Source: Cephalotus follicularis
Taxonomy: Eukaryota; Streptophyta; Magnoliopsida; Oxalidales; Cephalotaceae
Reading direction: 5' to 3'
Assembly (NCBI GenBank): GCA_001972305.1
Contig: BDDD01002246.1
Location: 124,001-188,000 of the forward strand
DNA: 64,000 nt
Below the pieces are notes generated by a model, which had not been told where the DNA came from, made no database searches, and saw only the letters and a list, made by a program, of their open reading frames with translations. Positions 2,706-64,000 of the stretch are shown piece by piece; within the stretch, counting starts at the first letter, position 1; each line of letters begins with the position of its first letter. The translations under genes and the position numbers were made by a program.

Positions 2706-2767
2706 AAAATAGCAGCAAAACAAAGCCGCAACTCACAATGATCCATTCTAACACACAACAAATCATA

Positions 2768-2875
2768 GCGTCGACGTTTTCTCTAAGCGTCGACGTTTAT
2801 CGCGAATCAGGACTCATTCTCCGTATAACAATCCATAGCGTCGACGCTTCTTTCCTAAACGTCGACGGTTAAGCG
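2768..2875 (-). repeat. TCGA-palindrome array, GCG-TCGA-CGC class
   Basis: Four copies of a GCGTCGACG-type motif have TCGA cores at 2771, 2790, 2841 and 2862. Steps are 19, 51 and 21 bp. It adjoins the CAG-class array, so L0 carries two motif classes side by side. Confidence 0.75.
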
Positions 2876-9116: not shown

Positions 9117-9612
9117 GAACAGAAAACAAGAAAATAACCAGAATTGGAAGAAGAACGGACGAGTTTGAGGACGAGTGATGACAGAGTAGATGTTTTAAGA
9201 GTGATTACAACGATTTTTTTTTTTAAAAAAACTTTAGAGAAAAAATTTTACAGATGATCAGGGTGAGGGTAAGGTGAGAGTGGAGAAGGGAGTCGACATT
9301 TTTATGAAAAAGAATCGAAGAGAGGTAAAAGACGTCGATTTTATTACAAAGGCGTCGACGCTTTTTTTAAAAAAAACGAAAAGCATCGATCTTAAGAACA
9401 AGAAAAACGCTGCGTTTTAAATATCATCAATGCGTTACGAAGGAGATCGACGTGTTTCAAAGACATCGACGACTTTGAAAAGAGATCGACGTGTATGGTC
9501 AGAACATTAAGCATAATAAGCTAAAAACAGAACAAATAAAAAAAAAACAAGATAATCAAACACATCTAACCATCTATTTAAGCAATCACAAACATAACCA
9601 TAAAAAAAAAAA
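9117..9612 (-). other. Sirevirus pol-to-env-like intergenic region
   Basis: No ORF is supported. The region holds A-rich tracts and a TCGA-motif array (9290-9490). It lies just upstream of the third ORF on its own strand, so it could act in that ORF's expression, for example as a promoter or splice region. That is inference. Confidence 0.5.
9290..9490 (-). repeat. TCGA array inside the sirevirus interior
   Basis: TCGA or TCAA cores lie at 9293, 9315, 9335, 9355, 9386, 9427, 9447, 9466 and 9486. Steps are 22, 20, 20, 31, 41, 20, 19 and 20 bp. Flanks are mixed GTCGAC, GTCGAT and ATCGAC, so this array blends the GCG and GACA classes. It is outside any LTR. Confidence 0.75.
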
Positions 9613-12600
9613 TCAATCAAGATCACACAAGCCAAGTTCTCTTCTAAATTTTGAAAAAGAATTTTCATCTAAATGCTTAGTGAAAATGTCAGCAACTTGT
9701 TTTTCCGTAGGAATATATTCTAAAACAATATGTCCGTTTTCAATATCTCTCTTAAAAAGTGATATCTAATATCAATATGTTTTGTCCTTGAATGATGAAC
9801 AGGGTTCTTAGCAAGACAAATACTACTAATATTATCATATTTTATAGAGACATCTTTCACATAAACACCATAGTCTATCAATTGTTGCTTTTTCCATAAA
9901 ATCTGTGCACAATAACTACCTACAGCAATATATTCAGCTTTAGTGGTAGACAGTGCAACAGAATTTTGCTTTTTGCTGAACCAGGAAATAAGCATACTTC
10001 CTAGGTATTAGCATGAGCCACTAGTGCTCTTGCGATCAACTTTATATCCACCAAAGTCGGCATCCGAATATGAATGTAAATCAAAACTAGAGTCTTGGGA
10101 ATACCATAAGCCTAAAGTAGGTGTATATGCAAGATATTTGAAAATACGTTTAACAGCAAACAAATGAGATTCTTTAGGGTTTGATTGAAAACGAGCACAC
10201 AAACAAACACTAAACAATATATCAGGTCTACTAGCAGTTAGATACAATAACGACCCTATCATGCATCTATAAAGCTTTTGATCAATATTTTTACCTTGTT
10301 CGTCTTTGTCAAGCTTTGTAGAAGTGCTCATAGGAGTCTTATTTGTTTTAGCGTTCTCCATTCCAAACTTTTTGAGAATTTCTTTTACGTACTTAGTTTG
10401 GTTGATGAAGATTCCCTCTTTGGTTTGTGTAACTTGAAGTCCAAGGAAGAAGTTGAGTTCTCCATCAAGCTCATTTCAAATTCTGACTTCATAGTATTAG
10501 AAAATTCCTTGCATAAAGATTCGTTAGTCGATCCAAAAATAATGTCATCAACATATATTTGTACTATAAGTAAATCATTGCCTTTAGATTCTGTAAAAAG
10601 TGTTATATCAACATTTCCTCATTTAAAATCATTTTCAATCAAAAATTTTGTCAACCTCTCATACCAAGCTCGAGGGGCTTGTTTGAGACCATATAAAGCT
10701 TTGTTTAGTTTAAAGACATGGTTTGGAAAGAAAGGATCCTAAAAACCTTGAGGTTGTTCTACATACACTTCTTCTTTTATAAAACCATTCAAAAAGGCAC
10801 TTTTTACATCCATTTGATACAATTTAAAATCTTTAAAACAGGCAAATGCAAGTAATAATCGAATAGATTCTAATCTAGCAACAGGTGCATATGTTTCATC
10901 GTAATCTATACCTTCTTCTTGTGAATAACCTTGAGCAACTAATCTAGCTTTGTTTCTAACTATAATTCCTTGATTATCCATTTTATTTCTAAACACCCAT
11001 TTAGTCCCTATCACAGAATGACCCTTAGGTCTAGGTACTAAAAACCAAACCTTGTTCCGTTCAAACTGGTTTAATTCTTCTTGCATAGCTACTATCCAGT
11101 TTTCATCCTTTTCAGCTTCTACAAAGTTCTTGGGCTCAAAGTGAGAAAGAAAAGCAACATAATTACAAGTATTTCCATTAGACCTAGCCATAACACCATG
11201 TTGAATATTACCAATTATGGCCTCATGTGGGTGATCTTTAACTACTTTATATGTCTTATCTACAAGATCTTGTTGGTAACTATCCTTAGATTCTACATCT
11301 ATGTTCTCAGAAGGTTCATGAAAGTCTATGCTATCATGCATGTGTGTACTTGAATCATCTATCTCATCAAAAACAACATGCATAGACTCTTTTACTAGCA
11401 ATGTTCGTTTATTGAAACATCTATAAGCTCTACTAGTAAGTGAATATCCAAGAAAAATACCTTCATCTGCTTTCGAGTTGAACTTACCAAGTTGATCCTT
11501 TCCGTTGTTGTGTATGAAACACTTGCATCCGAAGGCACGAAAGTGACTTATGTTAGGCTTTCTCTCTTTCCATAACTCGCATGGAGTCTTTTTGAGAATT
11601 GACCTTATCGATGTTCTATTTAAAATGTAACATGCAGTGTTTGTGGCTTCGGCCCAAAAGTACTTTGGAAGATTGTTTTCGCAAAGCATGGTTCTAGTCA
11701 TTTCTTCTAAAGTTCTATTTCTCCTTTCAACAACACCATTTTGTTGAGGAGTTCTAGGGGTTGAGAATTCATGTTTAAAACCATTTTCAATGCAATAGTT
11801 ATCAAGAGTGTTATTTTCAAATTCTTTACCATGATATTTTTAAAATAGGAAGTCCTTTTTGTTTTTGAACATGTTTAAAAAAATTCACAAAGAATGTAAA
11901 AACTTCACTTTTATGCGCTAAAAAGAAAACCCATGTGTATCTAGTGTAGTCATCAACGATAACATAGGCATACGACTTACCACCTAAGCTTCTTATGTTT
12001 ATAGGACCGAATAGATCCATATGAAGTAGTTCGAGTGGCCTAGAAGTTGAGACAATGTTAGTTGATTTCAAACTTGCTCTAATTTGTTTTCCTTGTTGAC
12101 AAGAATCACAAATTTTATTCTTTTGAAAACTCAATTTAGGAAGACCTTTAACTAAGTCATGTTTCAAAATCTTCGCAATAGTTCTCATACTAACATGACC
12201 AAGCCTTCTATGCCACATCCAACTATATTCATTTAAACATACAAGACATTTAACATTTTGGTTTTGAAGATCATTTAAATTTATAACATACACATTGCCT
12301 TCTCTTTGTCCAAAAAACTTGGTAGCGTAATTGGTGTTGTCAACTACTCTACATGATGTGTTTTCAAAAATAACTCAGCAATTCTTGTCACACAATTGAC
12401 TTATGCTCAAGAGATTGTGTTTGAGTCCTTTAACATGCAGTACATTAGTAATAGTAATGTTTTTATTACCTATGGAACCGGTTCCAATGATTTGTCCTTT
12501 TGTGTTGTCTCCAAAGGTCACGTTTCCTCCGTCTTTTGGTTCCTAGATTACAAATAGGCTTTTGTTACTCGTCATGTGTTTGGAGCATCCACTATCAAGG

Positions 12601-12650
12601 TACCACCATTTCCTTTTTGATGATGTCTTTAGATACATCTACAAATCAAG
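9613..12650 (-). pseudogene. Sirevirus pol (protease-integrase-RT-RNase H), broken
   Basis: Domains follow the copia order on the minus strand. The protease DSG is at 12596-12588 (WYLDSGCSKHMT). GAG-pre-integrase and the integrase zinc finger (HRRLGH...CDSCQQGK) fall in 12293-11826, along with the first catalytic Asps (HMDLFGP, VDDYTRY). Past a frameshift near 11845 the frame resumes with the ..[12 protein letters not shown] glutamate region. RT spans 11701 to about 10450, with [32 protein letters not shown] and, after a stop near 10740, [15 protein letters not shown] and YVDDIIFGS. RNase H follows (SYSDADFGG, STTKAEYIA, RTKHIDIRYHF), ending ADIFTKHLDE...LGLCDLD at 9613. Stops are visible near 12543, 12375, 10740 and 10010 and frameshifts near 11845 and 9730. 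Confidence 0.88.
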
Positions 12651-12655
12651 AGAGT

Positions 12656-13930
12656 TTAAGTTGAAGACTTTGGTACCCAAGTTGCTTTGGGTCCAGGGGG
12701 GTTAGTGATAAATGTTCCTTTTGGAACCCATATAGTTCTTAACTTAAACATTTTATTTTTCAATAATATATTTCTCTTATGCATATTATTTTTCTTGTGA
12801 TAACAGTTGTGTGTAGTGTGACCATTTTTATTGCAATAGTTACAAGTTATGCTAGATGAGGTCCTTTTAATATCTTTATTTTCAAGATATTTTTGAAAAT
12901 ACTTAACATTATTCATCTCATCATAACCTAGGTCAGCCTTGTTGAAAACACACCTTTAAAGTCCTAAAAGGTTGTCAAGTTTTTCACTACTGTTTGAAAA
13001 TTTTGAAAATGTCTTCTTAAGAGCATCAACTTCTAATTTTAGGGTTTCATTTTCTTTTTCAAGAGATATAGTCTTGTTATCTAAGGATTTATTTGATAGA
13101 CATTCTATTTCATGTTTTAAATTAACATTCTCTTTATTAAGTGCTTTTATTGTCTTTTTGAGAGATGCATTTTCTTGACTAAACTTTTCAAGTAATTCAA
13201 GAAGTCCACTTACCTCGTTTTCATCTTCATCTTCATCTTCATCAAGATCGTCAATTGCCATTAATGCTAATTGTGCTACTTCTTGGTTCTCCTCTTCTTC
13301 GGAGCTAGATTCATCACTGTCCGACCATGTAGCTAGCATTGCTTTCTTCTTTTTGATTGTTTCTTTGGCTTTCTTTAACCTTGGACATTCACTTTTGTAG
13401 TGTCCGGGTTTGTTGCATTCGAAGCATATTATTTCTTCCTTCTTCGTTTCAGATTTTGAGGGAATTGATTTCTTAAAGTGTTTGCTGCCAAACTTCTTCT
13501 TTGTTAAGTATTTTTTGAATCTCCTCATTATTAAGGCCATCTCATCATCACTATCTTCTTCGCTTGAATCCGCTGTAGAATATTTGAATGCTATGACTTT
13601 CTTTTTCTTCTTGTCTTGTTCTTCATCATCTTCATGATTTTTTATTGTCATTTCGTGTGTCATGAGTGATCCAAGAAGCTCTTCAAGTGGCAAAGTTTTG
13701 AGGTCTTTTGCTTCTTCTATAGCAGTGACCTTAGGCATCCAACTCTTGGGTAGACACCTGAGTATCTTTCTAACCATCTCACTGTTAGTGTAGCACTTAT
13801 TTAAAGATTGCAGTGAGTTTATAATATTGGTAAATCGAACAAACATACTAGAAATATTTTCATTTTCTTTCATTGAGAACATTTCATATTCTCTTACTAG
13901 CATATTTATTTTTACGTCTTTTATATCAAA
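12656..13930 (-). pseudogene. Sirevirus gag, N-terminally truncated, two zinc knuckles
   Basis: The main piece (13903-12956, 315 aa) starts inside the UBN2-type gag domain (NMLVREYEMF, then MVRKILRCLPKSWMPKVTAI) and carries a CCHC knuckle, CFECNKPGHYKSEC. An acidic Glu/Asp-rich stretch and a Leu/Lys/Glu coiled coil follow (ASLKKTIKALNKEN..). After a break near 12940 a second piece (12916-12656) has another knuckle, CNYCNKNGHTTHNC, and a WVPK linker to the protease. Upstream of the first Met the gag frame continues to about 13920 (DVKIN) and then runs straight into LTR sequence, so the gag start, PBS and the LTR's last 58 bp are deleted. Confidence 0.85.
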
Positions 13931-15128
13931 AAATAAAAACTTTAAAGTAAATAGTGTAAGGAAAGAAGAATTCTCTGTTTTAGAGTGGTTCGGCTAACTC
14001 TTTCCTACGTCCACTTTTCCCAAGGGAGCTCCTTGAGTTTCCACTATCTCGAATTGATTACGGTAGCAATTTGTTACACCTTACAACTTTGGTAATTGAA
14101 CTCAATCACAAGACCTTGACCTCAAGACCTTAGAGGATTCACCTCTTTTTCAAGTGTTTGTAAATGTGTTTACAAAATAACCTCTCAATAGGTTTGACCT
14201 AGCTTATAATACAGAACACAATTTGAATCACAAGGAACAACTCAAAGGATAGAGCTATGAAGCTTTTTGAGAACACTTTAGAGCACTTGAGCTTTGTGGA
14301 ATGAGATTTACTAGAATTCTTGAATTCTTTGTTTCTTGATTGTTGTCTCTCTTGTCTTTTTGAAGGTTTTGGATCTTCCTTTATATAGACAAAAAAGTCT
14401 TTGTAGCCATTGCATAAATCTTGGGAATTTAAGATATAAAAATGATGTGTTGATGCAACTCTGTTTTTTTGCCGGCTGAGATAAAGACGTCGATGTCTTT
14501 TTAAAGGGGTCGATGTCTTTGTCTATTACTAGCCGTTGCAAGTGGGTTAACTAGCCATTCCTTATTTGCCGGGTCAAACAATTTGAAAGGACGTCGATGT
14601 CTTTTATAGGCATCGATGTCTTTTCTGGGAATGTATCCAAGGATTTGAGGTTATGAGCATCGCATCGATGTCTTCTTGAAGGATCGATGTCTTTTCTGGA
14701 TTTTGCAATTGAGTCTTCAAACACATCGATGTCGAAGGAAAGGGATCGATGTCTTTTGTTGGACATCGATGTCTTCACATACAAGGATCGATGTCTTTAT
14801 TCAAAATCGACTTGTAACTTTTGTGCACTAAAGACGTCAATGTCTTCTTGAAAAGGGATTGATGTCTTTCTTCAAAAATGGCCTGTAACTTTGGTAGCTC
14901 AAAGACGTCGATGTCTTTTTCGAAAGGGATCGATGTCTTTCTTCAAAAGTGGCCTGTAACTTTGGTAGCTCAAAGACGTCGATGTCTTCATGAAAAGGGA
15001 TCGATGTCTTTTCTTTATAACATTCTTTTGCCTTTTGTGAATCTTTCTAACATCTTGCACATTAAGTAAACTTTGTTAAATGCAAATATGTTATCATCAA
15101 AACTAGGATTGAGACTAAACCGTCAACA
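13923..15128 (-). repeat. Sirevirus 5' LTR, missing its U5 end
   Basis: It corresponds to 6323-7527 of the 3' LTR. The 58 bp equivalent to 6265-6322, the primer-binding site and the beginning of gag are absent, and LTR sequence is joined to gag at about 13920-13930. The outer end GTCAACA (15128) is intact and followed by the TSD ATAAT. A copy of the GACA-TCGA-TGTC array lies at 14485-15010. Confidence 0.85.
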
Positions 15129-17884: not shown

Positions 17885-18160
17885 TCAGCATCACCGTTTA
17901 ACTCTAGGCATCGACGCTTATGTCTTTTAAGTGTCGACGCTTTAACTCTTAGCGTCAGTGCTTAGTTCAGAAGCTCTGCGCGTCAATATCCATCATCTTT
18001 GGCGTCGACGCTCAAGGCATGGACCCTTAAGCGTCGGCGCTTCAATCCTTGGCGTCGACGCTTTGAGGTAGGAACCTCACCCATCAACACTCCAGTCATT
18101 CATTTCCTTATCCAATGGTTCAAGGCGTCGAGGCTTTTACCTTAAGCGTCGATGGTTAAA
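17885..18160 (-). repeat. TCGA-palindrome array, GCG-TCGA-CGC class (G1 LTR)
   Basis: TCGA or decayed TCAN cores lie at 17891, 17911, 17934, 17955, 17983, 18005, 18034, 18055, 18084, 18128 and 18149. Steps are 20-23 or 28-29 bp, with one larger gap. The homologous 5' LTR array is at 48360-48670, where several CG dinucleotides have become CA or TG. Confidence 0.8.
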
Positions 18161-22174: not shown

Positions 22175-22311
22175 CAGCCATCGACAACCGACTGCCACAT
22201 GGGGTAGTCGACTTCCTGGTTTATGAAAGGGCAGCCGACTGTCATAGGGGAGCAGTCGACTGCCTAATGCGTGTTGTGGACAGTCGACTGGCCAATGCAT
22301 CCAGTCGACTG
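22175..22311 (+). repeat. TCGA array 1 of the G2 LTR
   Basis: 10-mers of the CAGCCGACTG/CAGTCGACTG type start at 22185, 22205, 22232, 22253, 22281 and 22302. Steps alternate between 20-21 and 27-28 bp. The 3' LTR copy is at 30775-30911. Confidence 0.75.
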
Positions 22312-23379: not shown

Positions 23380-23493
23380 CAATCGACTGTTATTAATGGA
23401 AGTCGACTACTCAACCATATCCAGTCAACTGCCAAGGCAAAGCAGTCGACAACTCAACCAAAGCAGCCAGCTATTCTTGAAGGCAGCCGACTA
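23380..23493 (+). repeat. TCGA array 2 of the G2 LTR
   Basis: Six motif starts lie at 23380, 23400, 23422, 23443, 23464 and 23484, with steps of 20, 22, 21, 21 and 20 bp. Motifs vary (CAATCGACTG, AAGTCGACTA, CAGTCAACTG) but the phase is strict. The 3' LTR copy is at 31976-32090 and the S4 copy at 42311-42424. Confidence 0.85.
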
Positions 23494-30567: not shown

Positions 30568-30595
30568 GGGCTAAATTCGAGGATGAATTTTCTTT

Positions 30596-30608: not shown

Positions 30609-33411
30609 TATAATAACCGCAAATTCAATTCGTGTACATTGTAATATTTATTAATAAAATGTGCACTCATTTGAATTTAATGTCCAATTATCATGAATTG
30701 TAATTGGTAATTGATCGGGATGAATGGAGATGCAAATTTATGAAAATCAAAATTAAGAAACCCTAAAAACAGCCATCGACAGCCGACTGCTACATGGGGC
30801 AGTCGACTTCCTGGTTTATGAAAGGGCAGCCAACTGTCACAGGGGAGCAGTCGACTGCCTGATGCGTGTTGTGGACAGTCCACTGGCCAATGCATCCAGT
30901 CGACTGGATCGGTACAGAACAGGTGTCTGTGCATGTCTGTGTGACTGAATCAAAGGAGGATTGCATGGTGGGCAGGTGTCACACGAGACAGGAGCTTCCA
31001 GAGCATGCAAAAAGGTATGCTTGCATGCCCTCCATTCCACCTGAAAGTTGCAGACCTGTAACCTATAAAATCAAAGAGAGAAAGGTGAGAAAGAGATAGA
31101 GAGAAGAGAGAAAGAAGTGCATGTGATGAGAGAAGGAAGAGTTAAAGAATCTGGCGAATTAAAGTCCCTGACCTCTATATCAGCTGTGCATGAGCTGAGA
31201 GTGAGTGTTAGAAACACTGAAAATTGAGGAGAGTTGCTAGAGGATTATTGAAAGCTTGCATTGGGGATTTGGAGTGGAACTCAAAGACTTGGGGAGCCTT
31301 AGACTTCTCCTGCTAAGTTCCAATTCGAGCTTCCTGCTGTTATTGTAATCTGTCTAGAATGTGACTAGGAATGCTAATATCTCCTGCTAAATGGCTAAGA
31401 TTAGCAAATTCTAGTATGGAATTAGAAATAGTATGAAAGAGAGTAAGAAATGTGAAGCTTAGAGAATTTTAATGAGTCTAATTTGAATTGTAATTGTTGG
31501 TTAGTTGTATTGTGCCTACTGATTCTCTTAAGTATATATGTGCGTTCTCTGTCAACACATTTAAGATCAAAGGATCCGAAATTGAATAATAGTTGACATA
31601 GAGTTCAAAGGAAGTTGAAAAATGGAAGCTTGAGACTTAAAGAATTGATAATAGGCTACTGTTAGAACATCTATTGTAGCTGGCTAATAGTTAAACCTAC
31701 TGGTACTGATGCATGTGTTCATAAACATGCATACATTGATTGTTTCTGCTGGATTGAGAGATTGTTGGTGGAAAGGACTTTGGAAACTCAAAGAGAAAGA
31801 TCATTCCAATTGATCTTGGGATAGCGATTTAAGGTAGGGGTAACGATATGTTATGGAAGATATGATCATGCATATCATGTATGTTATTTTTCTGAATTAT
31901 TGCATGCTTTGATTGTATTGAATTTGGATTGTGAAATATACAAACTGCTACTGCCTGCATTTTCTAGGCAGGAGCAATCGACTGTTCTTAATGGTAGTCG
32001 ACTACTCAACCCTATCCAGTCTACTGCCAAGGCAAAGCAGTCGACAACTCAACCAAAGCAGCCCGCTATTCTTGAAGGCAGCCGACTTCCCTGGATAAAA
32101 ATTGCTAATATAGGTCTGTTTGGACCTCAATTTTGAATGTAATGAGCCTGGCCTCCATTTGGATGACTAGAACATTTAATCCTGGCCTCATATACAATTA
32201 CATTCCAAAACTAAACAATGTACACACTCCTTGTGAGAGTTGCATATGAATTGACTATGTAATGCTATTCTTTGTGAATCCTTGCATTGCTACTGATTTC
32301 TGTTGTTGCTACTGAATATGCTTCTGTCATATTAGTATATACTGTTTGGTGTCATTTAACACCAATACCACTTGTATTTCAATAATTGAAACCAACTATG
32401 GGCTATGTACCCAAATTATGATATCAACTATCATTTTCAATGAAACCTATGGTTCAAAAGAAATTATTGATTTTCTCCTAAGAGAGATACCATCTGTTTT
32501 GTTTCCCATACTGGAAACCATTATTGTTTTGATATCGTTTTCCTCCGAAGAGATGTACGATAAATGACTTGTTATATGTTTCTAAAAGAAACCACTTTTA
32601 TATTGCATATTGCTGATATATGTAATATTATTATTGAATGCTTGTATTGTTTATGCTTGTTGCCGGTAGTCGAGTGATGGCTGTGGTCACCGACTACGGT
32701 AGGGATCCTGGGAGCCAGGAGTTGGCCAGGAGATCTCCAAATCTTATCTGCATTGCAGATCTTATTTGTTAAACTACCCACCAACGCCGGTAGTATATGT
32801 TACCTGTTCTATCATCCTCGGAGCGCAGGAGATAGTTAGGTAGTGCACAGTCGGAGCTAGGAGATAGCGGCATGTGACACCCAAACCAGGATGAATTGTT
32901 TGTACCCTTGTGCGGTATTCTTGCATATGTATTGTTTATGGCCACTTGGCATGATTGCTTATATATTGGCTCATTAAATGTTATTTTGCTATAAACTATC
33001 ATACATGTTGCATTCATATATTCCTTAGCATACTTTATCTTCCTACTTAGCCAAGTGAGGACAACGGCTAACCCCTACAATTTCAGATTAAGCGAAGACG
33101 TTGAAGATTGCTACTGAAGCTTGGAGAGCTTCTACTTTCATTTTAAGGTTGCTATTTTCATGATGTTGTACTGTATTGTTTCGAACGGTTCATACCTCGT
33201 TAATGTTGTACTTCCGCATGTAAGGATATTTTATTTGAATTGTAACCGTACGTAGTATGGGATGCGTGCGGATTACTTATGTTATATTCTGGCTTATTGA
33301 ATGCTTCCGCATGTTATTTTATGATTTGTTAAATGAATGCTGGAATATATTCAATTACTGATATCACCACATATGCTTGTCTAATGTGATTTGGAAATAC
33401 GGGGTGTGACA
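30609..33411 (+). repeat. G2 3' LTR
   Basis: 2,803 bp, the same length as the 5' LTR, with numerous substitutions spread along it. The terminal TG is mutated to TA, and the GTAAGT site is changed to CTAAGT at about 31313. The donor AAG|GTAGGGG (31834), the array (31976-32090), the hairpin (33047-33071) and the acceptor (33086) are kept. It ends GGGGTGTGACA. Confidence 0.9.
33047..33086 (+). promoter_or_regulatory. LTR hairpin plus 3' splice-site-like module (G2 3' LTR)
   Basis: Arms are TTAGCC (33047-33052) and GGCTAA (33066-33071), with TTTCAG ending at 33086. The stem and loop are unchanged relative to the 5' LTR although nearby positions differ. Confidence 0.7.
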
Positions 33412-33630
33412 GCATGGTATCAGAGCATATTCCTTATATGCTAAGCTGGGATAAGTTTCTCGGAAATTTAAGTGAATTGTTTCCTAATGATTTTGTCATT
33501 CCACATAGGAAACTGAATGGACCTAAGGAGTGGTAGACGGGTAAGGCGTGGAGCCGACGAGGGGAGTAATGCTCTGCCAGTACCTGAAAATGTTCCGCCA
33601 ATGAATGAAGGAGTGAACATTCCTCCAGCA
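33412..33630 (+). pseudogene. Second G2 leader and gag start after the 3' LTR
   Basis: Directly after the 3' LTR comes another GCA plus PBS (33415-33426) and leader, then gag MDLRSGR.. from about 33516, matching 24817-25030. It breaks off around 33630 into S2 minisatellite sequence. The locus therefore has the form LTR-interior-LTR-partial interior. This suggests a former tandem array shortened by deletion or unequal recombination. Confidence 0.85.
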
Positions 33631-36144: not shown

Positions 36145-36484
36145 TGTAACACCCCACGCCCGCAGGGCGAACACGTGGCATTACTCTCAATCCAATACAC
36201 AATACAATGGTTGGGACTAGCAATATAAAAATGTGAAAAAAAAACTTAAAACTTTACAATACATGTCATGTTGCGGAAAATACAATACAATACAAATCCT
36301 TCACAATACCAATCTTTTTCAGTACACTTATCAAACTCTTCAATGCAATATTACAATGAACTCTGTCAGATCTAGACGATCCCCTCGGTCGATGGAATCT
36401 TCAATCCTTCGATCCGCTGCTACCTACTGGCCTACCTATGCCACACACAAAATGTACAACACAGCCCCACCCCAAAGGATGGGG

Positions 36485-36501
36485 TTAGCCACACTGACTA
36501 A
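36485..36501 (-). promoter_or_regulatory. LTR hairpin (S3), G-U variant
   Basis: On the minus strand TTAGTC (36501-36496) pairs with GGCTAA (36490-36485) around AGTGT. One position becomes U-G in RNA, an intermediate between the TTAGCC/GGCTAA and TTAGTC/GACTAA stems. CCCCATCC follows, but the nearest acceptor AG is not obvious. Confidence 0.55.
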
Positions 36502-37370
36502 GCAGAAACCTCATGCAGGGTGTATGCATGTATAATGTGCAATATCGGTGACAATCTATGCTATATCAATGTGCGGTGTACAATATCAATGCATGAAATG
36601 GCATATGCATGTGTACAGTTGGCGATCAGACTACCCGTATGACAATGGCCCATAACAGAGCATACAAATAGGATCTATAACAATCAATCAATGGCAGACA
36701 CTCAATGGTGGTGTATAAAACACCCAATCAAAGTCCTATAGAGCATGCAACCCCGGGTCAATACAATGTCAATCAGTTAGCAGTGATCAATCCCATGGAA
36801 GGTAATCCTTCAAAAATGGTGGGAGATCTATCTACTGTCTCAGACTGATCAGGTCTGGAACTTGTAGATCTCTAGCCTATGGCTGGGTCAATACAATCTC
36901 GATGAGCTACACGAAGGAGCTACTATTACCATTAGGGAGCTACGGCCCTCAAGGAGCATCAATCGTCAATCAATCATGCTCGTCAACAAGACAATACAAT
37001 AAATGGAACAATACAATATATTAAATGATCGACAGGATAGGTGGACAGAGCCAAAAACCTAACTTGCCGACACGAATCATAAGGTCGCTCTATAGGATCC
37101 ATACAATACAATCAATCAAGTCAAAGCAACGTCAAAGCAAGGTCAATAAGTGGTCATGTCTAATGGAGAATGGGAATGTGCATCCAACATACCGACTTAG
37201 ACTCACGACACTTATGACTCAAGCAATCATTCAATCAATGTGTCAGTACAATCATTAAAAACTGTTTTCAAACACTTGAACACCTCAAATGAGGCTCCGG
37301 TCAAGTGGCCATGTGAAAAAGGAGTTGAAAACTTGCTTTAAAATAGCTAAAAGTTTCATTCAGTCCATTA

Positions 37371-37642
37371 GGCGTCGATGTCCTTGGAGAAAGACGTTGA
37401 CGTATCTTTAAAATGGTGGAAGGACATCGATATCTTTCTCTATTTGTGTAGAGATCTGGCCGAAAGACGTCGATGTCTTGGCGAAAGACGTCGATGCGTT
37501 TCAATAAAAATGGCCTGGAAATGCGCAACGATGTTCAGCATCGATGTCTTTCCTGGGGAGAAGACATCTTGAGGCAAAGACGTCGATGTCTTTGCTGCAG
37601 AATCAAAGTGAAAGACATCGACGTCCATGGGCTGGGGTCGAT
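37371..37642 (-). repeat. TCGA-palindrome array, GACA-TCGA-TGTC class (S3)
   Basis: Cores lie at 37375, 37397 (TTGA), 37427, 37470, 37491, 37541, 37567 (decayed), 37583, 37618 and 37638. Adjacent pairs are 20-22 bp apart with larger gaps between pairs. The class is otherwise seen in the sirevirus LTR, an unrelated element type. Confidence 0.75.
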
Positions 37643-38329
37643 GTCTTTGCTGGGCGGGGTCGGTTTTTGTGCAAAAAATCAGCCGATCTCAAGTCAAAAT
37701 CCAGTTTAAAGCCATTCTTTGAAAACTAAGGGTTAAAATCAATCATTTAAGGTTGGTAAAACTTGTTACAACCTTCTAATTTCAGTTTAATCCTTCTAGA
37801 CAAGTTACATTGAGGATATCAATCAAAACCCTAGTTTTTCAATTCTATACAATACAATCATTGATTCAATCAATCATGCAATTCAATCAATCATGCAATT
37901 AAGCAATAGGCAATTCAAGTAGGGAAGTCCTACCTATAACCGAAGCTTCAAAAGTTGAGCTTCCAAACAATCGATCGGCTGAAATCACCCACGAATCAGC
38001 TGCTATCTCACTCAAATGGCAACCCACAACTTGCAATCGCTATCCTTGATGATGGAGAGGAAGATGGAGGCTGCTCGGGTAGAGAGAGAGAGGGAGAAGG
38101 ATAGAGAGAGGGAGAACCATGAGAATATTGGAGAATGAGAGTAAGAATTGACTTATATAGTCAATTCGGTCAATTCTCTAAAACTCAGCCCAAAATTATA
38201 ACTATACATGCATGTAATCAATACAATAACCAATAGGTATAGGAATACCTCAATTCAATACAATTCAATAGGTCCAATACGGTACAATATATGTATGAAC
38301 AGTACAAAAAGGAATTTTAGGTCATCACA

Positions 38330-41014: not shown

Positions 41015-43756
41015 TGTAATAACCGCAAATTCAATTGATGTATATTGATCCAATTATTAATAAAATATACATTTTAATTGAGTTAATTGTCCAATTATTA
41101 TATTCTTTTGTGTTGGTTTATGATTGGAATGAATGGATGAACATTTGGTGAAGTATCAACTTAAGAAACCCTAAAACAACCATTGACAGCCGACTGCCAC
41201 AGGGGGGCAAGTCAACTGTCTAAATGCGTGGTATGGCAGTCGACTGCCAAGTGAAGGAAGTCCACTGGATCGGCACAGAACAGGTGTCTGTGCATGCTTG
41301 TTAAACTGAATCATGGGGCATTGCATAAAGGGACAGGTGTTGGGGGCAGACACCAGCTGCCAGAGCATGCAAAATAGAATGCATGCATGCCCTCTATTCC
41401 CTCTGCAAGGATTTCAGACCTGCAACCTGCAAATTGAAGTGAGAAGGGTAAGAAAAGAGGTGCATGTGAGATAGAGAAGAAAGGGAGAGAGGCTGAGTAA
41501 TGGAGTCTGGCGAATTCAAAGTCTCAAAGCCTTTATATCAGCTGTCCAGGAGCTGAAGGTGAGTGTTGGAAAACACTGAATTGAGGAGAATTGCTGGAAT
41601 TGGGAAGACTTGCTTTGGAAGGATTTAGAGAACTCAAAGAAGGAGCCTTTGAAGCTTTGGTCTCTCTTGGTAAGTTCTCAATCCGAACTCTCTGTTGTTA
41701 TGATGATAATGTATCTGGGAGAATGTTTAATCTTCTGTTAACATGGTTAAGGTTAACAAACTTCTAGAATTGAATTGATATGGAATGTAGCATATGATTC
41801 AAGTAAGGTGAAGATTATAATCTCTAAATTGGACTGTAGTTGTTGTTAGTTGCCATGATAAGCTTACTGATTCCCTTAGGTATAAACATACACATCTTCT
41901 GTCCACACGTTTAAAAGGCACTGAATTGATGTAGTTGGACACAAAGGGCATAGAGATGTGGTAAAAGGGGATAGTATGAAACTTACTGAACTAATGATTA
42001 ACTACTGTTGATTGGAGTGTCATAAGGTTACTGAAATTCTGGTACTAATGCATGTGTCCATAACATGCATTGTATAGATTAATCTTGCTGGAATTGAAGG
42101 GTTGGTTGGTGAAAGCTTGGAAAACTTAAAGAGAAAGATCAAACTCAATTGATCTTGGGATAGCAATTGAAGTAGGGGTAACGATATGTTTTGGAAGATA
42201 TGATCATGCATATCATGTATGTTTACTTTTCTGCATTATTGCATGTTTGATTGGATTGGTATTATAGATTGAAAATTGCAAACTGCTACTGCCTGCGTTT
42301 CCTGGGCAGAAGCAATCGACTGCTCTTCATGGCAGTCGACTACTCAACCCAATCTAGTCGACTGCCAAGGCAAAGCAGTCGACCACTCAACCAAGGCAGC
42401 CGGCTATTCTTGAAGGCAGCCGACTGTCCTGGGTAAAAAAATTACTGATATAGGTTCTATTGAGCCTCAATTTGGAATGTAATTAACTTGGCCTCCATAT
42501 GGATGATTAGAACAGTCTATCCTGGCCTCATATACAGTTACATTTCAAGATTTAAACAATGTACGCACTTCTTGTGAAAGTTGCATATGAATGACTATGA
42601 AATGCTAATTGTCTTGTGATTCCTTGAATTACTACTGCCTTTGATTATTGTTACTGCATATGCTACTTATGTTAGTATATACTGTTTGATGCTATTAACA
42701 CCACTACCACTGATAATTCAAAGATTGAAACCATCTATAGGCCTTGTACCCAAATTTATGATATTAACTATCATTTTCAAATGAAAGACTAATGCTAAAT
42801 GAACTACTGATTTTCCTCCTATATGAGAGGTACCTACTGTTTGTTTCCCAAACGGGAAACCACTACTGAATTGATCTCGTTTTCCTCACATGAGACGTAC
42901 GATAAATGAATTGTTATATGTTTCTAAAGAAACAACCTTTATATTGCATCTTATTGATATATGTAATATTACTATTGAAATGCTTGAATTGATTGTCTAT
43001 GTTTATTGTCGTAGTCGAGTGATGGAGGATATCATGGACTACGGAAGTGATCCTGGGTGCCAGAAGTTGGCCAGAGTATCACCCAAATGTCTGCCTTGCA
43101 GAACTTACTGTTAAACTACCCACCAATGCCGGTAGTAAATGTTACCTGTTCTATCATCCTCGGTGTATAGGGTGATAGTTAGGTGGTGCGCAGTTGGTGC
43201 TAGGAGTTAGCGACATGTGACACCCAAACCACTGTATGAATTGATTGTACCCTTGTGCGGTATGCTTGCATTATATTGTCCATGGCCACTTGGCATGGTT
43301 GCTTATTCATTGGAATACCAAATGTTATTTTTATATAAACTGTCATACATATTGCATCCATATATTCCTTAGCATGCATTATCTTCCTACTTAGCCAAGT
43401 GAGGACAACGGCTAACCCCTACAATTTCAGATTAAGCGAAGGCGTTTGAAGATTGCTGCTGAAGCTTGGAGAGCTTCTACTTTCATTTTAAGGTTGTTAT
43501 TTCCCTTATGATGTATTGTATCGAACGGATCACACTCCGTGTACTGTTGTATTTCCTTATGTAAGGATAATTGTTTGACTTGTTCCCGCACGTAGTATGG
43601 GATACGCGCGGGTGGCTTATATTTATATTCCGGCTTATTGACTGCTTCTGCATATTGTTTATATACTGTTGAATGAAATGCTGTAATGTATGTTAAATTC
43701 TGATATCACCACATATGCTTGTCTTAATGGTATGGAATGAATAACGGGGTGTGACA
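41015..43756 (+). mobile_element. S4: solo LTR of the G2 family in G1 gag
   Basis: 2,742 bp, TGTAATAACCGC to CGGGGTGTGACA, TSD CTTTC (41010-41014 and 43757-43761). Removing it restores the gag start of G1. It is clearly a relative of the G2 LTR but more diverged than the two G2 LTRs are from each other. Arrays are at 41185-41275 and 42311-42424, the donor-like GAA|GTAGGGG is at 42172, and the hairpin/acceptor is at 43391-43430. Confidence 0.9.
43391..43430 (+). promoter_or_regulatory. LTR hairpin plus 3' splice-site-like module (S4)
   Basis: TTAGCC (43391-43396) and GGCTAA (43410-43415) flank the same 13-base loop as in G2, with TTTCAG ending at 43430. With the donor-like GT at 42172 it would define a 1,259-bp intron. 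Confidence 0.68.
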
Positions 43757-46632: not shown

Positions 46633-49234
46633 TGATAGCAAATGCAGTTTGTGAAAGAGTTCGTAAAGCTCGGAAATCCTCTATCCTTGATCGTTTCGTT
46701 TATCCTTGATCGTTTCATTTATCCTGCATGCACAACACATTTCTGTTACACTCTACACATGGAAACCAAGAACAGCAGCCATCGGAGCTTCGGCCAGTTT
46801 CCGGCAAACTCACTCAGCTCCGGCGAAACCCAAAAACAGGTTCCACATTGGACGATATGTTCAAAACCACCGGAGGCTCACCGTGACTCATCGTGAAACG
46901 CGCTGTCACGGCCGGCAATGAGTTAACTCGCCGGTCAACCACAGCTTCGGTCACCACCTAAAATCACCACACAATCATCAATCTTACGTGTCACTACCAG
47001 AGACTCGTCGTGAAATGCGCTGTCACGGCCGGCCAGTGAGTTCAACTCACTGAGTTGACTCGCTGGTCAACTACAGCTCCGGCCACCACCATAAAAAGCA
47101 TCACAATCATCATATCAACACATCTATGCCCTTAACTCGCCGAGACTCGGCACTAAACGCACGGTCCAAGGCGGAGCGGGTCAACTCGCTGAGTCGACTC
47201 GTCAGTTCAAATCCGGCCGTTTTCGGCCGAATGGCCCCAAATCGGTCACTGAAATAGGTGTAGCCGGCCTCCTAAGTGAAGACTGGACCCACCCGCGACG
47301 TTAACCGGTGGTGGAACGCACGGCAACGCGCGATAGTGATGGCGTCGGGGAGGAGAAAACGGGCAAAAAGAGAAGAAAAGAGAAGAAAAGAATGAAGGAG
47401 GCTTACCGCCGGCAGTGGAGGCTCTGACCGGTGAGCTCCTGGTCCGGCGACGTCGTCTTCTCCTGCGCCGAGATCTCCCTCTCTCCCTTTCTCTCCCACT
47501 GGTCTCTCCCGATGTCTCTCTCTCTCAATGCGTCTCCTGCTTCTTTTCTTTGCACGGGCGCCTTATGCACCTATGTGTCATTTCTTTGTCCTTTATTCAA
47601 TTTTTGCTTCCCTTCTTGGTATTTACTGGTCAAAATACTAAGGCCTGAGTCCCGTTTAATCCGCAAACGGCAATATTAATTATCCGAACGGGTACCAAAA
47701 TAATCGCAATAAAAATGCGAACATAGGGCCTTGTTGTCGCGCATTAAAAATGGGCTTTATTAATCATTTTGGGCCTTATGATTTGCGACTCCAATACGCG
47801 ATACTTTTTATCGATTCGGGCTCCATCGGCTCAATACAGCCATACACTATGCCAATATTAAAATAATTATTTATAAAATTCTGAGCGTTACACCATCAAT
47901 CCAATCCATGGTTGCTTGCACTCCGTGTTTAGCAACCTGTTACTTGCATTCAATGTTTAGTTGCCAACGTATGAGGAATTCCTAACTACTTGCACTCAGT
48001 GTTTAGTAGCCATTGTATGTGGAATTCCTCTTACAATCCATGAACAGTCTCAAGATCAATCCATTTCCAAGTAGATTATAATTTATAAAATACTGGAAAA
48101 TATTACATTTATTCAAACGTATAATCAGTCATTTGGACAATCAATCATCTCTTCGAAAATATCCAATTTCGTATAACAATTTCAATCTTTTGAAAATATG
48201 CATTTCGTACAAAATAATGATTTATTTTAAATCATACATGCACTTTCTAAAATGACAAGAAATTTTAGAATTCATTAACAATCAAACATGCAAGACAATC
48301 CATAACAATATGCAATGCAAACATATGCTCAAAATGCAAACAGGCTCTATTCGCGTCAACGTGTGTGGTATTGGCGTTAACTTCCAAAATCAGTCACTTC
48401 AGCGTCGCCGTTTAACTCTAGGCGCCGACGCTTATGTCCTTTAAGCGTCGACGCTTTAACTCTTAGTGTCAGTACTTAGTTCAGAAGCTTTGCGCGTCAA
48501 TATCCAACCTCTTTGGCGTCGACGCTCAAGGCATGGACCCTTAAGCGTCAGTGCTTCAATCCTTGGCGTCGACACTTTGAGGTAGGAACCTCACATGTCA
48601 ACGCTCCAGTCATTCATTTCCTTATCCAATGGTTCAAGGCATCAACACGTTTAACTTAAGCGTCAATGGTTAAAGAAGACCAGATCGTCTTCTCCCCCAA
48701 CATATAATAAAACCAGTAGAAATCCAAGCATAGTAATACATGCATCTCAATCCATCATCAATCCGAACAACATGCATGGTAGGTTAACTAAACATAGAAA
48801 CCATATTATCAACCAAACAATCCATAAACCATAATGTCCATGCAAATCATCAATGATCATCCACCATTTTTGTCACACCCCACTTTCGATAAAAAGACGT
48901 AAAGGTGGTAAAGGCGATTAACATTAGGATTCAGGTTATACAAATACCATAAAATTTAAACTTTTCAAATAAGATATCAGTTGCGGAAGCATTAAAACTC
49001 ATAAGCTGAAAACACGTAACGTGCATGCCATACTGCACGCTGCTCAATACAAGTCTGTCATAGTTAAAAGCCCACAAATGGAGCGTGATCCATAATACAT
49101 TACCTAGTAACATCAAAAGTCTAGTAACTGGAAAATACATTTCACAACACCCAAAGGGGATATAACCCCTGGTAAAACATTACTAAAACTGGTACTTCAT
49201 CCACGCTGATCCCCAGCTGGTCCACTGCATCAAT

Positions 49235-54074: not shown

Positions 54075-54250
54075 GCAGCTTGGCAGTCGGCTGGATTCTT
54101 CACCAGTCGGCTGTTTTGGGTAATCAGTACATAAGTAGTCTGCTGGTTCCTTCTACCAGTTGACTTGTTCATTAGGCAGCCGGTTGTTATCCTTCAACAG
54201 TCGACTGTTTCGATTGAGCATTCGGCTGTCTTCCTTAGACAGTCGACTGT
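54075..54250 (-). repeat. TCGA-palindrome array, CAG class (G3 LTR)
   Basis: Motifs such as CAGTCGGCTG, TAGTCTGCTG, CAGTTGACTT, CAGCCGGTTG, CAGTCGACTG and CATTCGGCTG follow at about 20-22 bp. On the element's strand these read as the CAGCCGACTG type. A second set (CAGTCGGCTG, CAGTTGGCTG, CAGTCGGATA and others) lies at 58750-58905. Confidence 0.75.
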
Positions 54251-58244: not shown

Positions 58245-59055
58245 CGTAACTTCCCCTACCTTTTGATTCCAAGTTAGGAATCTGTAAGTCCACCTCTTTG
58301 TGTTCCAACAGTGACGTTTTGAGCACCCCAGACGCTTCAACTCCAACCCAATAGCTCCAACCCGTCACGTCCAAACTCCTCTTGGTTCAACAATTTGAGA
58401 ATCTCTCTCTCTTTCTTTCGTGATTCATCACTCTTTTTTCTTTGTAATTCTCACTGGTTTTCTTTCCTTGCATACACTGGGCGGGAGAGGTGAAGATGAT
58501 AACGTTTTATGCAGGTGGTTCTCTCTCTCTTTTCTCCAGCCCATTTCCCATGGCACTAAATGCCATACTCCTCTCATATCTACATGCACACACACACTAG
58601 ACTGGTTCTCCCTGTCCCATGACCTGCATGGCGCACAGGTGTTAACTCTTCCCTCTGCATTGACCGCATGACACACAGATGGCACACCCTTCCTCCTTGT
58701 CAGTCGTTGCATGTGATTTCATCACATGCAAATAAAATAGAGCATAATCCAGTCGGCTGTTCTTCCCCGGCAGTTGGCTGTCCTCTTGGCTATGGTTGCC
58801 AGGTGGCTCGACAGCCCTCCAGTCGGCTGGTTCGTCCCACCAGTTGGCTGCTTCATTTAAATGGTCCATCAGTCGGATAGTCTATTACACCAGCCGACTG
58901 TCCCCGTCAATATTTCAACAATCATACTTCTAAGTGTTTTGATTTGATTTGCGAATCAAAATATTTGCCGGGACATTTATCTTTCTCATTATTTTAATAA
59001 CAAGATTGCATTTGGAATTTAAATATTACAACGTGTGAAAATTCTGGGTGTTACA

Positions 59056-61084: not shown

Positions 61085-61894
61085 TGTAACGCCCGAGATT
61101 TTCGTTAATGTGTAATATTACATTTTTAATGTAATTTTATACGTGGAATTAATGAGAATTGTGTTTTTCCCCCTTTGGTGTGGTAAAAGGTGCAAGAAAA
61201 AGTGTGTTGTGTGCTTTTGGTGCAGGGGGCAGCCGACTGCCACAGGGAGGCAGCCGACTGGACTCCCCTAGTAAAGTTGGCAGCCAGCTGTTGTGAGGAG
61301 GCAGCCGGCTGTTTTGAATGTCGACAGAAACAGTCGACTGCCAAGGCATGGCAGCAGACTGCCATGCACCAGACAGCCACGTGCTGTCAGCCTTTAAAAG
61401 AGAAAAAGGGGATGTTTTGGCATTTTGTGGACATGGCAGAAAGAGGGGCCGGGTCTCCTTGATAAAAACGCAAGCTTCTATTCTCCAATCTCCATTCTTC
61501 CTCTGTGATTTCATGTGTTTTTGGGAGTAGAGGAAACGGAGTGAAAGCGTGTATGTTGTGGAGATACGGAGCTTGGCGTTGAACCGTGAGCTTGGAGGCT
61601 GGACCAGTAGAGGAACCGGACCAGTGGAGGCTGCTGGACGCGTTTGGAGGTGCAAGGACCTCGGATCTAGGACTTAAAGAGGTGGATTGCAACTCCTAAC
61701 TTGGAGTTCTAAGGTAGGGGAAAGCTATATTTGTGATTCAGAGTCATTTATAATGATGTTATAAGTGAAGTGCATGTGATATTGTGATAGAAGCCTGAAT
61801 ATGTGCTTTGATAATGGTATTTTATGGTTGGTTTGGTTTAAATGTGGATTGAAGTGTGTGTTTTACTGCTGTTTTTGGGCACTGCCCGTGGGGG

Positions 61895-62380
61895 CAGTCG
61901 ACTGTCCAGGGAGGACAGCCGACTGTCCAAGGCTAGCAGTCGACTGTTTTGGGTAATAGCCGACTGTCAAGGGAGAACAGCCGACTGGGCACTGGAGCCA
62001 GTCAACTGTTGTGCCTGGAATTGCAGGTTTCTTCTTGTTGTTTGTGTAGCCGACTGCCAAGGAAGGCAGCCGACTGTGTGGTGGTCCAGCCGACTGTTTT
62101 GGGTAACAGCCGACTGTCCACGTGTCACTCTCCCGGACATGCTGGGACAGGTTGCAGCAAGGGATGTGTATTGTATTGGACCAGCCGACTGCCTGGAGAG
62201 GGCAGCCGACTGCTATGTGAGGGACAGCCAACTGCCGAGGAGGGCAGCCGACTGTTGGCATGGGACAGCCGACTGCCAAGGAGGGCAGCCGACTGTTGGT
62301 TAAGGGCAGCTGACTGCCAAGTGTGGGACAGCCGACTGTTGAAGGAAAACAGCCGACTCTCAGTGAGAAATGACCGACTG
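61895..62380 (+). repeat. Largest TCGA-type array, CAGCCGACTG (S8)
   Basis: Motif starts are 61895, 61916, 61937, 61957, 61978, 61999, 62047, 62067, 62087, 62107, 62182, 62203, 62225, 62245, 62266, 62286, 62307, 62329, 62350 and 62371. Within each run the steps are 20, 21 or 22 bp; the gaps are 48 and 75. Consensus is CAG[C/T]CGACTG. Spacers differ but are often GRGGGA or CCAAGG-like. A second, shorter array lies at 61225-61355. Confidence 0.9.
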
Positions 62381-62758
62381 TTGGAACCGTCTTGCATTGT
62401 GAGCATATGTATGCATATTGTACTGTGTTAAATTGTATTTCAAGTTGGTTATTGAGGATTGTGAAACGTTTTACCCTTTTTGGAAGTGCAAATGTGATTT
62501 ACATAAATTATTACTTTATGTGAAATGTACGTTTTGAGATATATACCTATTCTCGAAAGATTGTGAAAATGGTTTCCAAAAGGATTGTGAAAACGTGTTT
62601 GGTCAATGATTTATTAAAATCATGGGTGTTTGGGAAATGGTTTCCAAAAGGATTGTGAAAATGGCTTTCGAGAGATTGCGAAACTGATATACAAATATGT
62701 ATTTTTGAGGTATTTGAATGTAGTTCAAATAACCGGGTTTTACGAAAGTGTATTGTCA

Positions 62759-63022
62759 CAAGTATTTTGATACTTGAGTTTTGGGAAAATGATCGTTATA
62801 TGTATTTTGAAAATATATATGTTGCAAGTATTTATATCTATAAATTACTTGAAATGTTTAAAGAGAACTGTATTGTTGCAAGTATTTTATGAATCATAAT
62901 TTACTTGGGAAACGAAGTGTTATATATATGTTTTGACAAATATATATATGTCGAAAGTATTTATACTTTAACCGTTTTGGGAACGAGATGTTTTGATCAA
63001 GTATTTATTTTATAAACTACTT
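62759..63022 (+). other. Series of four CAAGTA...TACTTG hairpins
   Basis: CAAGTA and TACTTG arms recur at 62759-62776, 62825-62851, 62879-62907 and 62998-63022. The second also pairs TTTATA with TATAAA around TC, with one bulged T. They lie in AT-rich sequence between the array and the second duplication unit. Confidence 0.5.
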
Positions 63023-64000
63023 GAGTGGATTTGAGTAATATTACATTTTTAATGTAATTTTATACGTGGAATTAATGAGAATTGTGTTTTTCCCCCTTTG
63101 GTGTGGTAAAAGGTGCAAGAAAAAGTGTGTTGTGTGCTTTTGGTGCAGGGGGCAGCCGACTGCCACAGGGAGGCAGCCGACTGGACTCCCCTAGTAAAGT
63201 TGGCAGCCAGCTGTTGTGAGGAGGCAGCCGGCTGTTTTGAATGTCGGCAGAAACAGTCGACTGCCAAGGCATGGCAGCAGACTGCCATGCACCAGACAGC
63301 CACGTGCTGTCAGCCTTTAAAAGAGAAAAAGGGGATGTTTTGGCATTTTGTGGACATGGCAGAAAGAGGGGCCGGGTCTCCTTGATAAAAACGCAAGCTT
63401 CTATTCTCCAATCTCCATTCTTCCTCTGTGATTTCATGTGTTTTTGGGAGTAGAGGAAACAGAGTGAAAGCGTGTATGTTGTGGAGATACGGAGCTTGGC
63501 GTTGAACCGTGAGCTTGGAGGCTGGACCAGTAGAGGAACCGGACCAGTGCAGGCTGCTGGACGCGTTTGGAGGTGCAAGGACCTCGGATCTAGGACTTAA
63601 AGAGGTGGATTGCAACTCCTAACTTGGAGTTCTAAGGTAGGGGAAAGCTATATTTGTGATTCAAAGTCATTTAAAATGATGTTATAAGTGAAGTGCATGT
63701 GATATTGTAATAGAAGCATGAATATGTGCTTTGATAATGGTATTTTATGGTTGGTTTGGTTTAAATGTGGATTGAAGTGTGTGTTTTACTGCTGTTTTTG
63801 GGCACTGCCCGTGGGGGCAGTCGACTGTCCAGGGAGGACAGCCGACTGTCCAAGGCTAGCAGTCGACTGTTTTGGGTAATAGCCGACTGTCAAGGGAGAA
63901 CAGCCGACTGGGCACTGGAGCCAGTCAACTGTTGTGCCTGGAATTGCAGGTTTCTTCTTGTTGTTTGTGTAGCCGACTGCCAAGGAAGGCAGCCGACTGT

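Follow-up and report, generated by a model that had tools for sequence, protein, structure and literature searches.

Arrays of palindromes that share a YCGR centre and stand mostly whole helical turns apart occur in the long terminal repeats (LTRs) of unrelated retrotransposons, both within a 64,000-nucleotide stretch of a plant genome (the window; C2246:124001-188000 of a 1.58-Gb assembly) and elsewhere in the same genome. The reading preferred here, at slightly better than an even chance, is that these are phased cis-regulatory arrays bound by a protein, with a host factor as the more likely reader, and that they raise transcription.

The array first noted lies in an LTR at the end of the window, in which the following features were delimited:

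61085..63031, plus strand: first part of a Ty3/gypsy-type LTR, beginning TGTAACG
61230..61361, unstranded: second CAG-class array of this LTR, steps of 21, 30, 21, 29 and 21 bp
61895..62359, unstranded: CAG-class array, 19 sites with no more than one mismatch from CAGYCGRCTG
63032..64000, plus strand: second repeat unit of the LTR, running on past the window
63153..63284 and 63818..63999: arrays in the second repeat unit, the latter reaching the window edge

Consecutive sites in the array at 61895-62359 are separated by 21, 21, 20, 21, 21, 48, 20, 20, 20, 75, 21, 22, 20, 21, 20, 21, 22 and 21 bp, so that steps of 20–22 bp predominate and the exceptions are one step of 48 and one of 75 bp. A first-pass annotation of the sequence had proposed arrays of palindromes here and in other LTRs, and this is borne out by the 19 sites of this array and by the occurrence of arrays of at least three sites at 18 places in the window. 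The LTR (61085 onwards) probably belongs to Ty3/gypsy, as judged from its end (L028:1955, beyond the window), from the initiator-Met-type primer binding site (PBS) that follows at L028:1960, and from the related gag start of an internally deleted copy; the interior has been lost, the gag start alone is left, and its translation is related to the Ty3/gypsy element 22016-33636 (E 3e-11). A CAAAT target-site copy at 61080-61084, just before the LTR, is found again at L028:2619-2623 after the last LTR end. The LTR also contains a tandem duplication of ~1.92 kb (61109-64000; second unit from 63032) at 99% identity, by which the arrays are doubled.

The sites fall into two classes with the YCGR centre in common, CAGYCGRCTG (purines mostly before and pyrimidines mostly after it) and RCRTCGAYGY flanked by AAAG..CTTT, represented after flank dereplication by 90 CAG and 75 RCR sites and carrying information over ~14 and ~18 bp, respectively. 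Three arm classes had been claimed from the first pass; two of them, GCG..CGC and (G)ACA..TGTC, are one class, namely RCRTCGAYGY within AAAG..CTTT. Chance occurrence is excluded by the counts in 22 random 10-kb stretches (220 kb, with some runs of N) set against a first-order Markov expectation: 34 exact CAG sites vs 0.25 expected, 106 exact RCR sites vs 3.3, and 29 extended RCR sites vs 0. AT repeats aside, the most enriched palindromic 10-mers (seen at least four times) are CAGTCGACTG, GCGTCGACGC, and ACGTCGACGT. A set of 19 random 10-kb stretches holds 28 arrays, spread over 14 of them. Across the whole assembly CAGYCGACTG-N7-15-CAGYCGACTG gives 83,849 plus-strand matches vs 287 for a reversed-pattern control; this and the other whole-genome counts given below tally copies within amplified families and do not represent independent events.

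The proposal that such arrays are carried by unrelated retroelements also holds, since they are found in the LTRs and a linker of a Ty1/copia Sirevirus-like element as well as in Ty3/gypsy LTRs. The features that carry this contrast, which rests on RVT_2 vs RVT_1, are:

6887..7406, unstranded: RCR-class array in one copia LTR, 14 sites
8640..9194, minus strand: post-pol open reading frame (ORF) of 185 aa between stops, PF20167, placed where Sireviruses have their env-like gene
9332..9492, unstranded: RCR-class array in the copia linker between pol and post-pol ORF, upstream of the minus-strand ORF 9194-8640
10011..13993, minus strand: copia coding pieces gag, integrase and RVT_2 (Pfam)
14487..15007, unstranded: RCR-class array in the other copia LTR, 14 sites
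36145..38329, minus strand: solo LTR of Ty3/gypsy family C (probably chromovirus), inserted in the pol of another gypsy element
37372..37644, unstranded: RCR-class array in gypsy LTR C, steps of 52, 43, 21, 50, 42, 35 and 20 bp

The copia element (6323-15130) has gag, integrase and RVT_2 domains with the PF20167 ORF after pol, and is termed Sirevirus-like on the basis of this layout; several PPT-like runs, identified by eye, precede its 3' LTR. AAAG-RCRTCGAYGY-CTTT arrays are present in both LTRs and in the linker before the PF20167 ORF. Steps are 20, 103, 51, 19, 42, 20, 20, 22, 49, 22, 49, 71 and 22 bp in the array at 6887-7406 (a 71-bp tandem repeat overlaps 7184-7410), and 20, 84, 19, 52, 19, 42, 20, 20, 22, 120, 22, 49 and 22 bp in the one at 14487-15007 (71-bp tandem repeat overlapping 14785-15011).

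The family assignment of the solo LTR comes from another genome stretch (L013), in which the family C LTR stands beside an initiator-Met-type PBS at 2411, gag to the last pol match covers 2583-6405, and an LTR part begins at 6457. The gag-pol between these LTR parts is of the gypsy kind, and the stretch matches by tblastn an ORF with a sub-cut-off Chromo domain. The gaps are ~170 bp between PBS and gag match and 52 bp between last pol match and LTR, and are therefore too short to hold a further ORF of sizeable length next to gag-pol. The extended RCR motif is common to the copia LTR and gypsy LTR C, and once motifs are masked a single 16-bp match between the two is left; the idea that copia and gypsy had recently exchanged a block of LTR sequence was rejected for this reason. 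Every carrier with an assignment is an LTR retrotransposon, and none qualified as a Mutator-like DNA transposon. In the four LTRs measured the arrays occupy the first half, up to the middle. TATA-like boxes lie 100 bp after the array in the copia LTR, with others before and inside it, and no TATAWA box was found after the array in gypsy LTR C.

One step in the solo LTR, 35 bp at 37580-37624, is among only 75 such strict-motif places genome-wide; the related family C array in L016 (steps of 52, 20, 42, 22, 50, 41, 20, 51 and 21 bp) has steps of 50–52 bp, which suggests that a local deletion broke the phase in the solo copy. When mismatches are allowed, two 13-bp steps appear in copies of gypsy LTR C.

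The remaining arrays delimited in the window are the following:

2378..2847, unstranded: mixed array in which a 92-bp step connects 12 CAG-class with 3 RCR-class sites
17908..18134, unstranded: RCR-class array, steps of 94, 29, 21 and 73 bp
22185..22311, unstranded: CAG-class array near the LTR start of Ty3/gypsy element 22016-33636, steps of 47, 21, 28 and 21 bp
23380..23493, unstranded: second CAG-class array in the first LTR of that element, steps of 42 and 62 bp
30780..30906, unstranded: CAG-class array in its second LTR, steps of 20, 27, 21, 28 and 21 bp
31975..32088, unstranded: second CAG-class array in its second LTR, steps of 42 and 62 bp
42313..42426, unstranded: CAG-class array in an LTR related to that at 22016
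48422..48525, unstranded: RCR-class array in a relative of 17854-18358
54084..54249, unstranded: CAG-class array, steps of 20, 73, 21, 21 and 21 bp
58750..58900, unstranded: CAG-class array, steps of 21, 49, 21 and 50 bp

Element 22016-33636 matches RVT_1, SH3_Tf2-1 and, below the cut-off, Chromo in Pfam; its pol end is 47 bp from the LTR, which excludes an extra ORF on the 3' side only. Chromo matches in the right place fall under the Pfam cut-off (17.2 and 23.0 bits vs 25.1), and the gypsy elements of the window are probably chromoviruses. Among 20 ORFs scanned with Pfam 15 had matches, mostly to LTR-retrotransposon domains, and ten further ORFs gave one weak match in total. Within the same gypsy element two adjoining head-to-tail copies of a 2,120-bp stretch are 100% identical (24298-26417 / 26418-28537), either a very recent event or an assembly artefact, and unlike tandem repeats (periods of 82, 34, 40, 17 and 27/55/82 bp) are clustered at 20894-22013, directly before its LTR at 22016.

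Palindromic LTR arrays are already known as a Sirevirus feature. Bousios et al. 2010 (PMC2829016) describe arrays of palindromic repeated motifs (RMs) in Sirevirus LTRs, upstream of the TATA box, for which a regulatory role is no more than proposed and which they call Sirevirus-specific and absent from classic retrotransposons. RMs are high-copy palindromes of the first half of the LTR and of the region before the env-like gene, and the copia element shows this layout, with 14 sites per LTR and further copies before the ORF in env-like position (9332-9492); moreover, two of the 13 motifs given in that paper have a TCGA centre (Vitis CGGTCGACCG and Tnd-1 ACAATCGATTGT). The CGG-CCG core of RMs, in contrast, is replaced here by YCGR between RCR or CAG arms (among the 13 published RMs, Tnd-1 is likewise without CGG-CCG, according to PMC2829016), and the motifs are not confined to Sireviruses, the extended RCR motif and the CAG class both being present in Ty3/gypsy LTRs. 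In the main text of PMC2829016 the terms spacer, interval and spaced are absent and "helical" appears in a reference title only. The palindromic cis-regions of maize Sirevirus LTRs (Bousios et al. 2016, as presented in PMC5311732) are likewise palindrome-rich, regulatory and highly variable in sequence, but in that account they concern Ty1/copia only and come with no spacing rule.

The first-pass annotation had named as closest precedent the targets of the VANC proteins of VANDAL transposons (Hosaka et al. 2017, PMC5735166); these are only an analogy, and the palindromic Sirevirus RMs are closer. VANC targets resemble the arrays in being many short noncoding motif copies whose density is important, and differ in belonging to DNA transposons, in being read by an element-encoded factor, and in consisting of a 9-bp non-palindromic motif of tandem-repeat origin; PMC5735166 uses none of the terms spacing, intervals, palindrom and periodic. 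No VANC protein was found among the 30 of 57 stop-to-stop ORFs (at least 110 aa) of the window scanned with Pfam, many of which come from broken elements. A machine-learning survey of LTR binding sites in 75 plant species (PMC11656987) reports an LTR association for sites of DREB1 stress factors, but treats single-site features, and "palindrom" and "TCGA" are absent from its text. Among the literature matches listed (titles and abstract openings), none describes phased palindromic arrays in Ty3/gypsy LTRs, and among those listed for the motif strings none is, by title, on plant LTRs. Arrays in Ty3/gypsy LTRs, one motif common to copia and gypsy, and helical quantisation of the spacing thus look new.

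The helix phasing that had been proposed is upheld by several counts of distance. When 256 palindromic 8-mers were scanned in the random sample for pairs 18–23 bp apart, AGTCGACT, CGTCGACG, CATCGATG, and AGCCGGCT were among the top, AT repeats ranking above these four YCGR 8-mers and TTTTAAAA and AAAATTTT between them. Of the palindromic 8-mers 42 have 25 or more pairs each, and only four of these, all of them YCGR, are phased at ~10.3 bp (AGTCGACT, z 15.3; AGCCGGCT, 9.5; CATCGATG, 9.0; CGTCGACG, 8.2), and the next palindrome reaches 2.0. Six of 253 random non-palindromic 8-mers with enough pairs reach z values of 5.8–8.9; GGTCGATG, AAGCCGAC, CAGCCGTC, ATATCGAT, and GAGACATC are, by eye, neighbours of the motif, an explanation that does not extend to the sixth, CCAGGAAC. 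In 420 dereplicated pairs, pooled from the window (its first 63 kb) and from 19 random stretches, distances peak at 20–21, 28–31, 41–42, 49–50, 62–63, 70–71, 83–84, 91, 104, and 112 bp. The best period is 10.2–10.3 bp in the CAG and RCR classes taken separately, and both give one lattice. With one representative from each of 14 families the phase value is 0.515 vs a null maximum of 0.185 (0 of 5000 random placements); CAG only (7 families) and RCR only (7 families) each likewise gave 0 of 5000.

A constant step of two turns, as originally claimed, is too narrow a description, given that 27–31, 41–43, 47–52, and 69–75 bp are favoured too and that steps cluster near 2, 3, 4, 5, and 7 turns. Consecutive RCR steps (n = 107, from 16 arrays whose families are not all independent and two of which belong to a hold-out) comprise 72 even-turn, 21 odd-turn and 14 that are neither. 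Exact ACRTCGAYGT pairs in the whole genome number 17,400 at 19–22 bp (reversed-pattern control 54), 118 at 24–27 bp (0), 4,354 at 29–32 bp (10), 75 at 34–37 bp (1), 11,293 at 49–52 bp (15), and 638 at 54–57 bp (3), and pairs of CAGTCGACTG at 34–37 bp number 41. Several unlike spacers are found among the matches listed at 29–32 and 49–52 bp, and each of these steps therefore involves more than one family; RCR pairs 54 bp apart come mostly from one family among the matches listed and lie ~2–3 bp off the lattice.

The lattice is less exact at odd turn numbers. The "three-turn" step of the CAG class is 27–30 bp, about 2 bp short of three turns, and the cosine mean at 10.3 bp of the steps not near multiples of 20.7 (26 steps, 14 representatives) is only 0.197 because many fall 1–3 bp short of an odd turn number. 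The hold-out (30 kb, two RCR arrays, only 16 pairs) shows no phase signal, its cosine mean at 10.3 bp being 0.04, although five of its nine steps are 20–22 bp and two more are 62 and 64 bp. A gap of 98 bp (~9.5 turns) in the RCR arrays L010:3297 and L033:5077 is an exception to whole-turn spacing; under relaxed site calling the gap at L033:5077 becomes 31+67, and L021:1781, of the same family as L010, reads 31+18+49.

A helical period need not imply a specific protein, as TCGA steps at every turn might serve the rotational positioning of nucleosomes; the period of 10.2–10.3 bp agrees with nucleosome rotation, and in arrays with masked motifs the spacing of WW dinucleotides peaks weakly at 10 and 20–22 bp. 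Nucleosome rotation would also favour one turn, however, and the dereplicated list contains no motif pairs at 10–14 bp; the long arms are, in addition, conserved and palindromic, so that this reading is considered very improbable. A register of phased 21-nt small RNAs was discarded, as it would not yield the peaks at 29–32 or 49–52 bp.

Tandem duplication of a ~21-bp unit followed by decay, with the motif as its best-preserved part, deserves closer attention, since steps of ~20.5n bp could by themselves arise in this way. Tandem Repeats Finder assigns units of 20–21 bp to the target arrays and units of 71 bp to part of those in the copia LTRs, and spacer identity is 0.394 within an array vs 0.307 between families, chance being 0.258. 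The spacers are nonetheless close to chance identity beside near-perfect motifs, the peaks at 29–32 and 49–52 bp are no multiples of 21 (the bins flanking the 4,354 pairs hold 118 and 75), several RCR arrays, 37372-37644 and 17908-18134 among them, have no Tandem Repeats Finder row, which makes RCR the class better suited to this question, and two motif classes occupy one lattice. As the whole cause tandem duplication was rejected on the strength of the three- and five-turn peaks together with the near-random spacers, and hardly any probability is assigned to this reading; as a contributor to the arrays it is accepted. The concern raised in the first-pass annotation that the spacing might be no sharper than local duplication would give is countered by three- and five-turn peaks that duplication of a 21-bp unit does not predict.

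Selection acts on the motif rather than the spacer, as had been suggested. In 66 alignments of diverged homologous stretches (62–85% identity, at least 250 bp, pairs in both directions) motif columns are identical in 2270 of 2600 cases (87.3%) vs 12033 of 16626 (72.4%) for spacer columns, and the possibility that spacers are as conserved as motifs is thereby answered in the negative. The statement that spacers are not conserved needs correction for the AAAG/CTTT next to RCR, which is conserved and part of the motif. Of 260 core CpGs 224 (86%) are retained, vs 352 of 593 other CpGs inside arrays and 639 of 1115 outside (57–59%). Plant LTRs are usually methylated, and methylated CpG is expected to decay fast; if these LTRs are methylated, the retention of CpG despite expected decay is therefore strong evidence that the core matters. 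The spacing itself behaves differently: in diverged homologous LTRs the distance between motif pairs changes by no more than 1 bp in 111 of 134 cases (83%) and that between control anchors in 1744 of 2092 (83%), and because the two are equal a phase constraint is not seen directly at that scale. Gap openings per 100 columns are 3.47 in spacers vs 2.27 in the rest, and among the larger spacing changes 9 of 17 amount to whole turns vs 66 of 244 in controls, a marginal difference (p 0.048).

Retention of CpG also bears on a role of the arrays in host silencing, by which a DNA-binding factor would bring RNA-directed DNA methylation to them and the sites would be kept for another reason. The palindromes of maize Sirevirus LTRs are small-RNA hotspots, as presented in PMC5311732, which is in line with such a role; selection that keeps CpG against decay is more readily understood if the element uses the sites than if it is targeted through them, and silencing as the main explanation is decidedly improbable.

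In the preferred reading of phased regulatory arrays, each palindrome would be the putative site of a dimeric DNA-binding protein, the dimer reading the CpG-centred YCGR core together with the arms of its class (CAG/CTG or AAAGAC/GTCTTT). Adjacent dimers would share almost one side of the helix, at distances of mostly 2, 3, 4, 5, or 7 turns, where they may touch or share a co-factor, and the footprint of a dimer would explain why one-turn spacing is hardly ever found. Dimers side by side on one face fit the data because the motifs are long and symmetric with a CpG core maintained by selection, the steps are whole turns and one-turn steps are nearly absent. The array would most likely boost transcription from the LTR, and the array in the copia linker might also boost the post-pol ORF.

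If the reader is a known kind of host activator, a stress-response factor comes to mind: the GYCGAC / RTCGAC core resembles the DRE/CRT site of DREB/CBF (AP2) proteins, and the LTRs would then be cold- or drought-inducible. The centre of the CAG class reads GYCGAC, with GCCGAC in CCGA-type and GTCGAC in TCGA-type sites vs the DRE/CRT core RCCGAC, and barley HvCBF2 prefers (G/a)(T/c)CGAC. PMC11656987 reports an LTR association of DREB1D sites in its survey of 75 plant species, and Sirevirus RMs matched stress-factor sites as given in PMC2829016. The information content of ~14 bp (CAG) and ~18 bp (RCR), on the other hand, exceeds what a DRE core needs, and ACATCGATGT has CGAC on neither strand, which makes this identification quite unlikely.

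A regulator encoded by the elements themselves is an unlikely but still considerable alternative. A VANC-like protein, for example the product of the PF20167 ORF, would bind the arrays of its own family for anti-silencing or activation, and gypsy elements would borrow the sites or would formerly have encoded such a protein. The copia element has this ORF after pol, the array directly before it keeps the idea alive, and arms differ between classes as expected of co-evolving protein/site pairs; among 11 sequences judged by eye, some of the longer PF20167 relatives show an N-terminus rich in lysine or a heptad-like stretch at the C-terminus. A search for relatives of the ORF passed 130 proteins, of which the 120 listed are all named Cephalotus, and identity to a Cephalotus follicularis protein is 88% over 85% of the length. 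Against an element-encoded regulator, the RCR class is also present in gypsy L013, which is without room for a sizeable extra ORF, and the Pfam line of PF20167 carries no DNA-binding annotation. This domain, Transposase_32, stands here after the pol of a Ty1/copia element (8640-9194), and in PMC11728184 it is linked to Athila ORF1 of Ty3/gypsy elements; the ORF may have passed between lineages.

A host protein is favoured because the RCR class occurs both in copia and in gypsy L013, where an ORF has no room; a host factor, or a small set of paralogous host proteins, would be more probable than one regulator per element. A bolder version of this proposal is tentative and rather doubtful: a single host protein family, exploited independently by copia and gypsy, would polymerise on one face of the LTR into a filament that the elements share as an enhancer or as a defence against silencing, the arrays would be convergent, and the filament would govern most LTR retrotransposons of the genome.

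A whole-turn spacing rule common to copia and gypsy LTRs would mean that the readers cooperate along one face of the DNA. Motif and step together provide an exact bait for the factor, and moving the sites by half a turn offers a clean control. Should the arrays be read by a host factor, many retrotransposon families would be under the control of a single plant protein at the same time.
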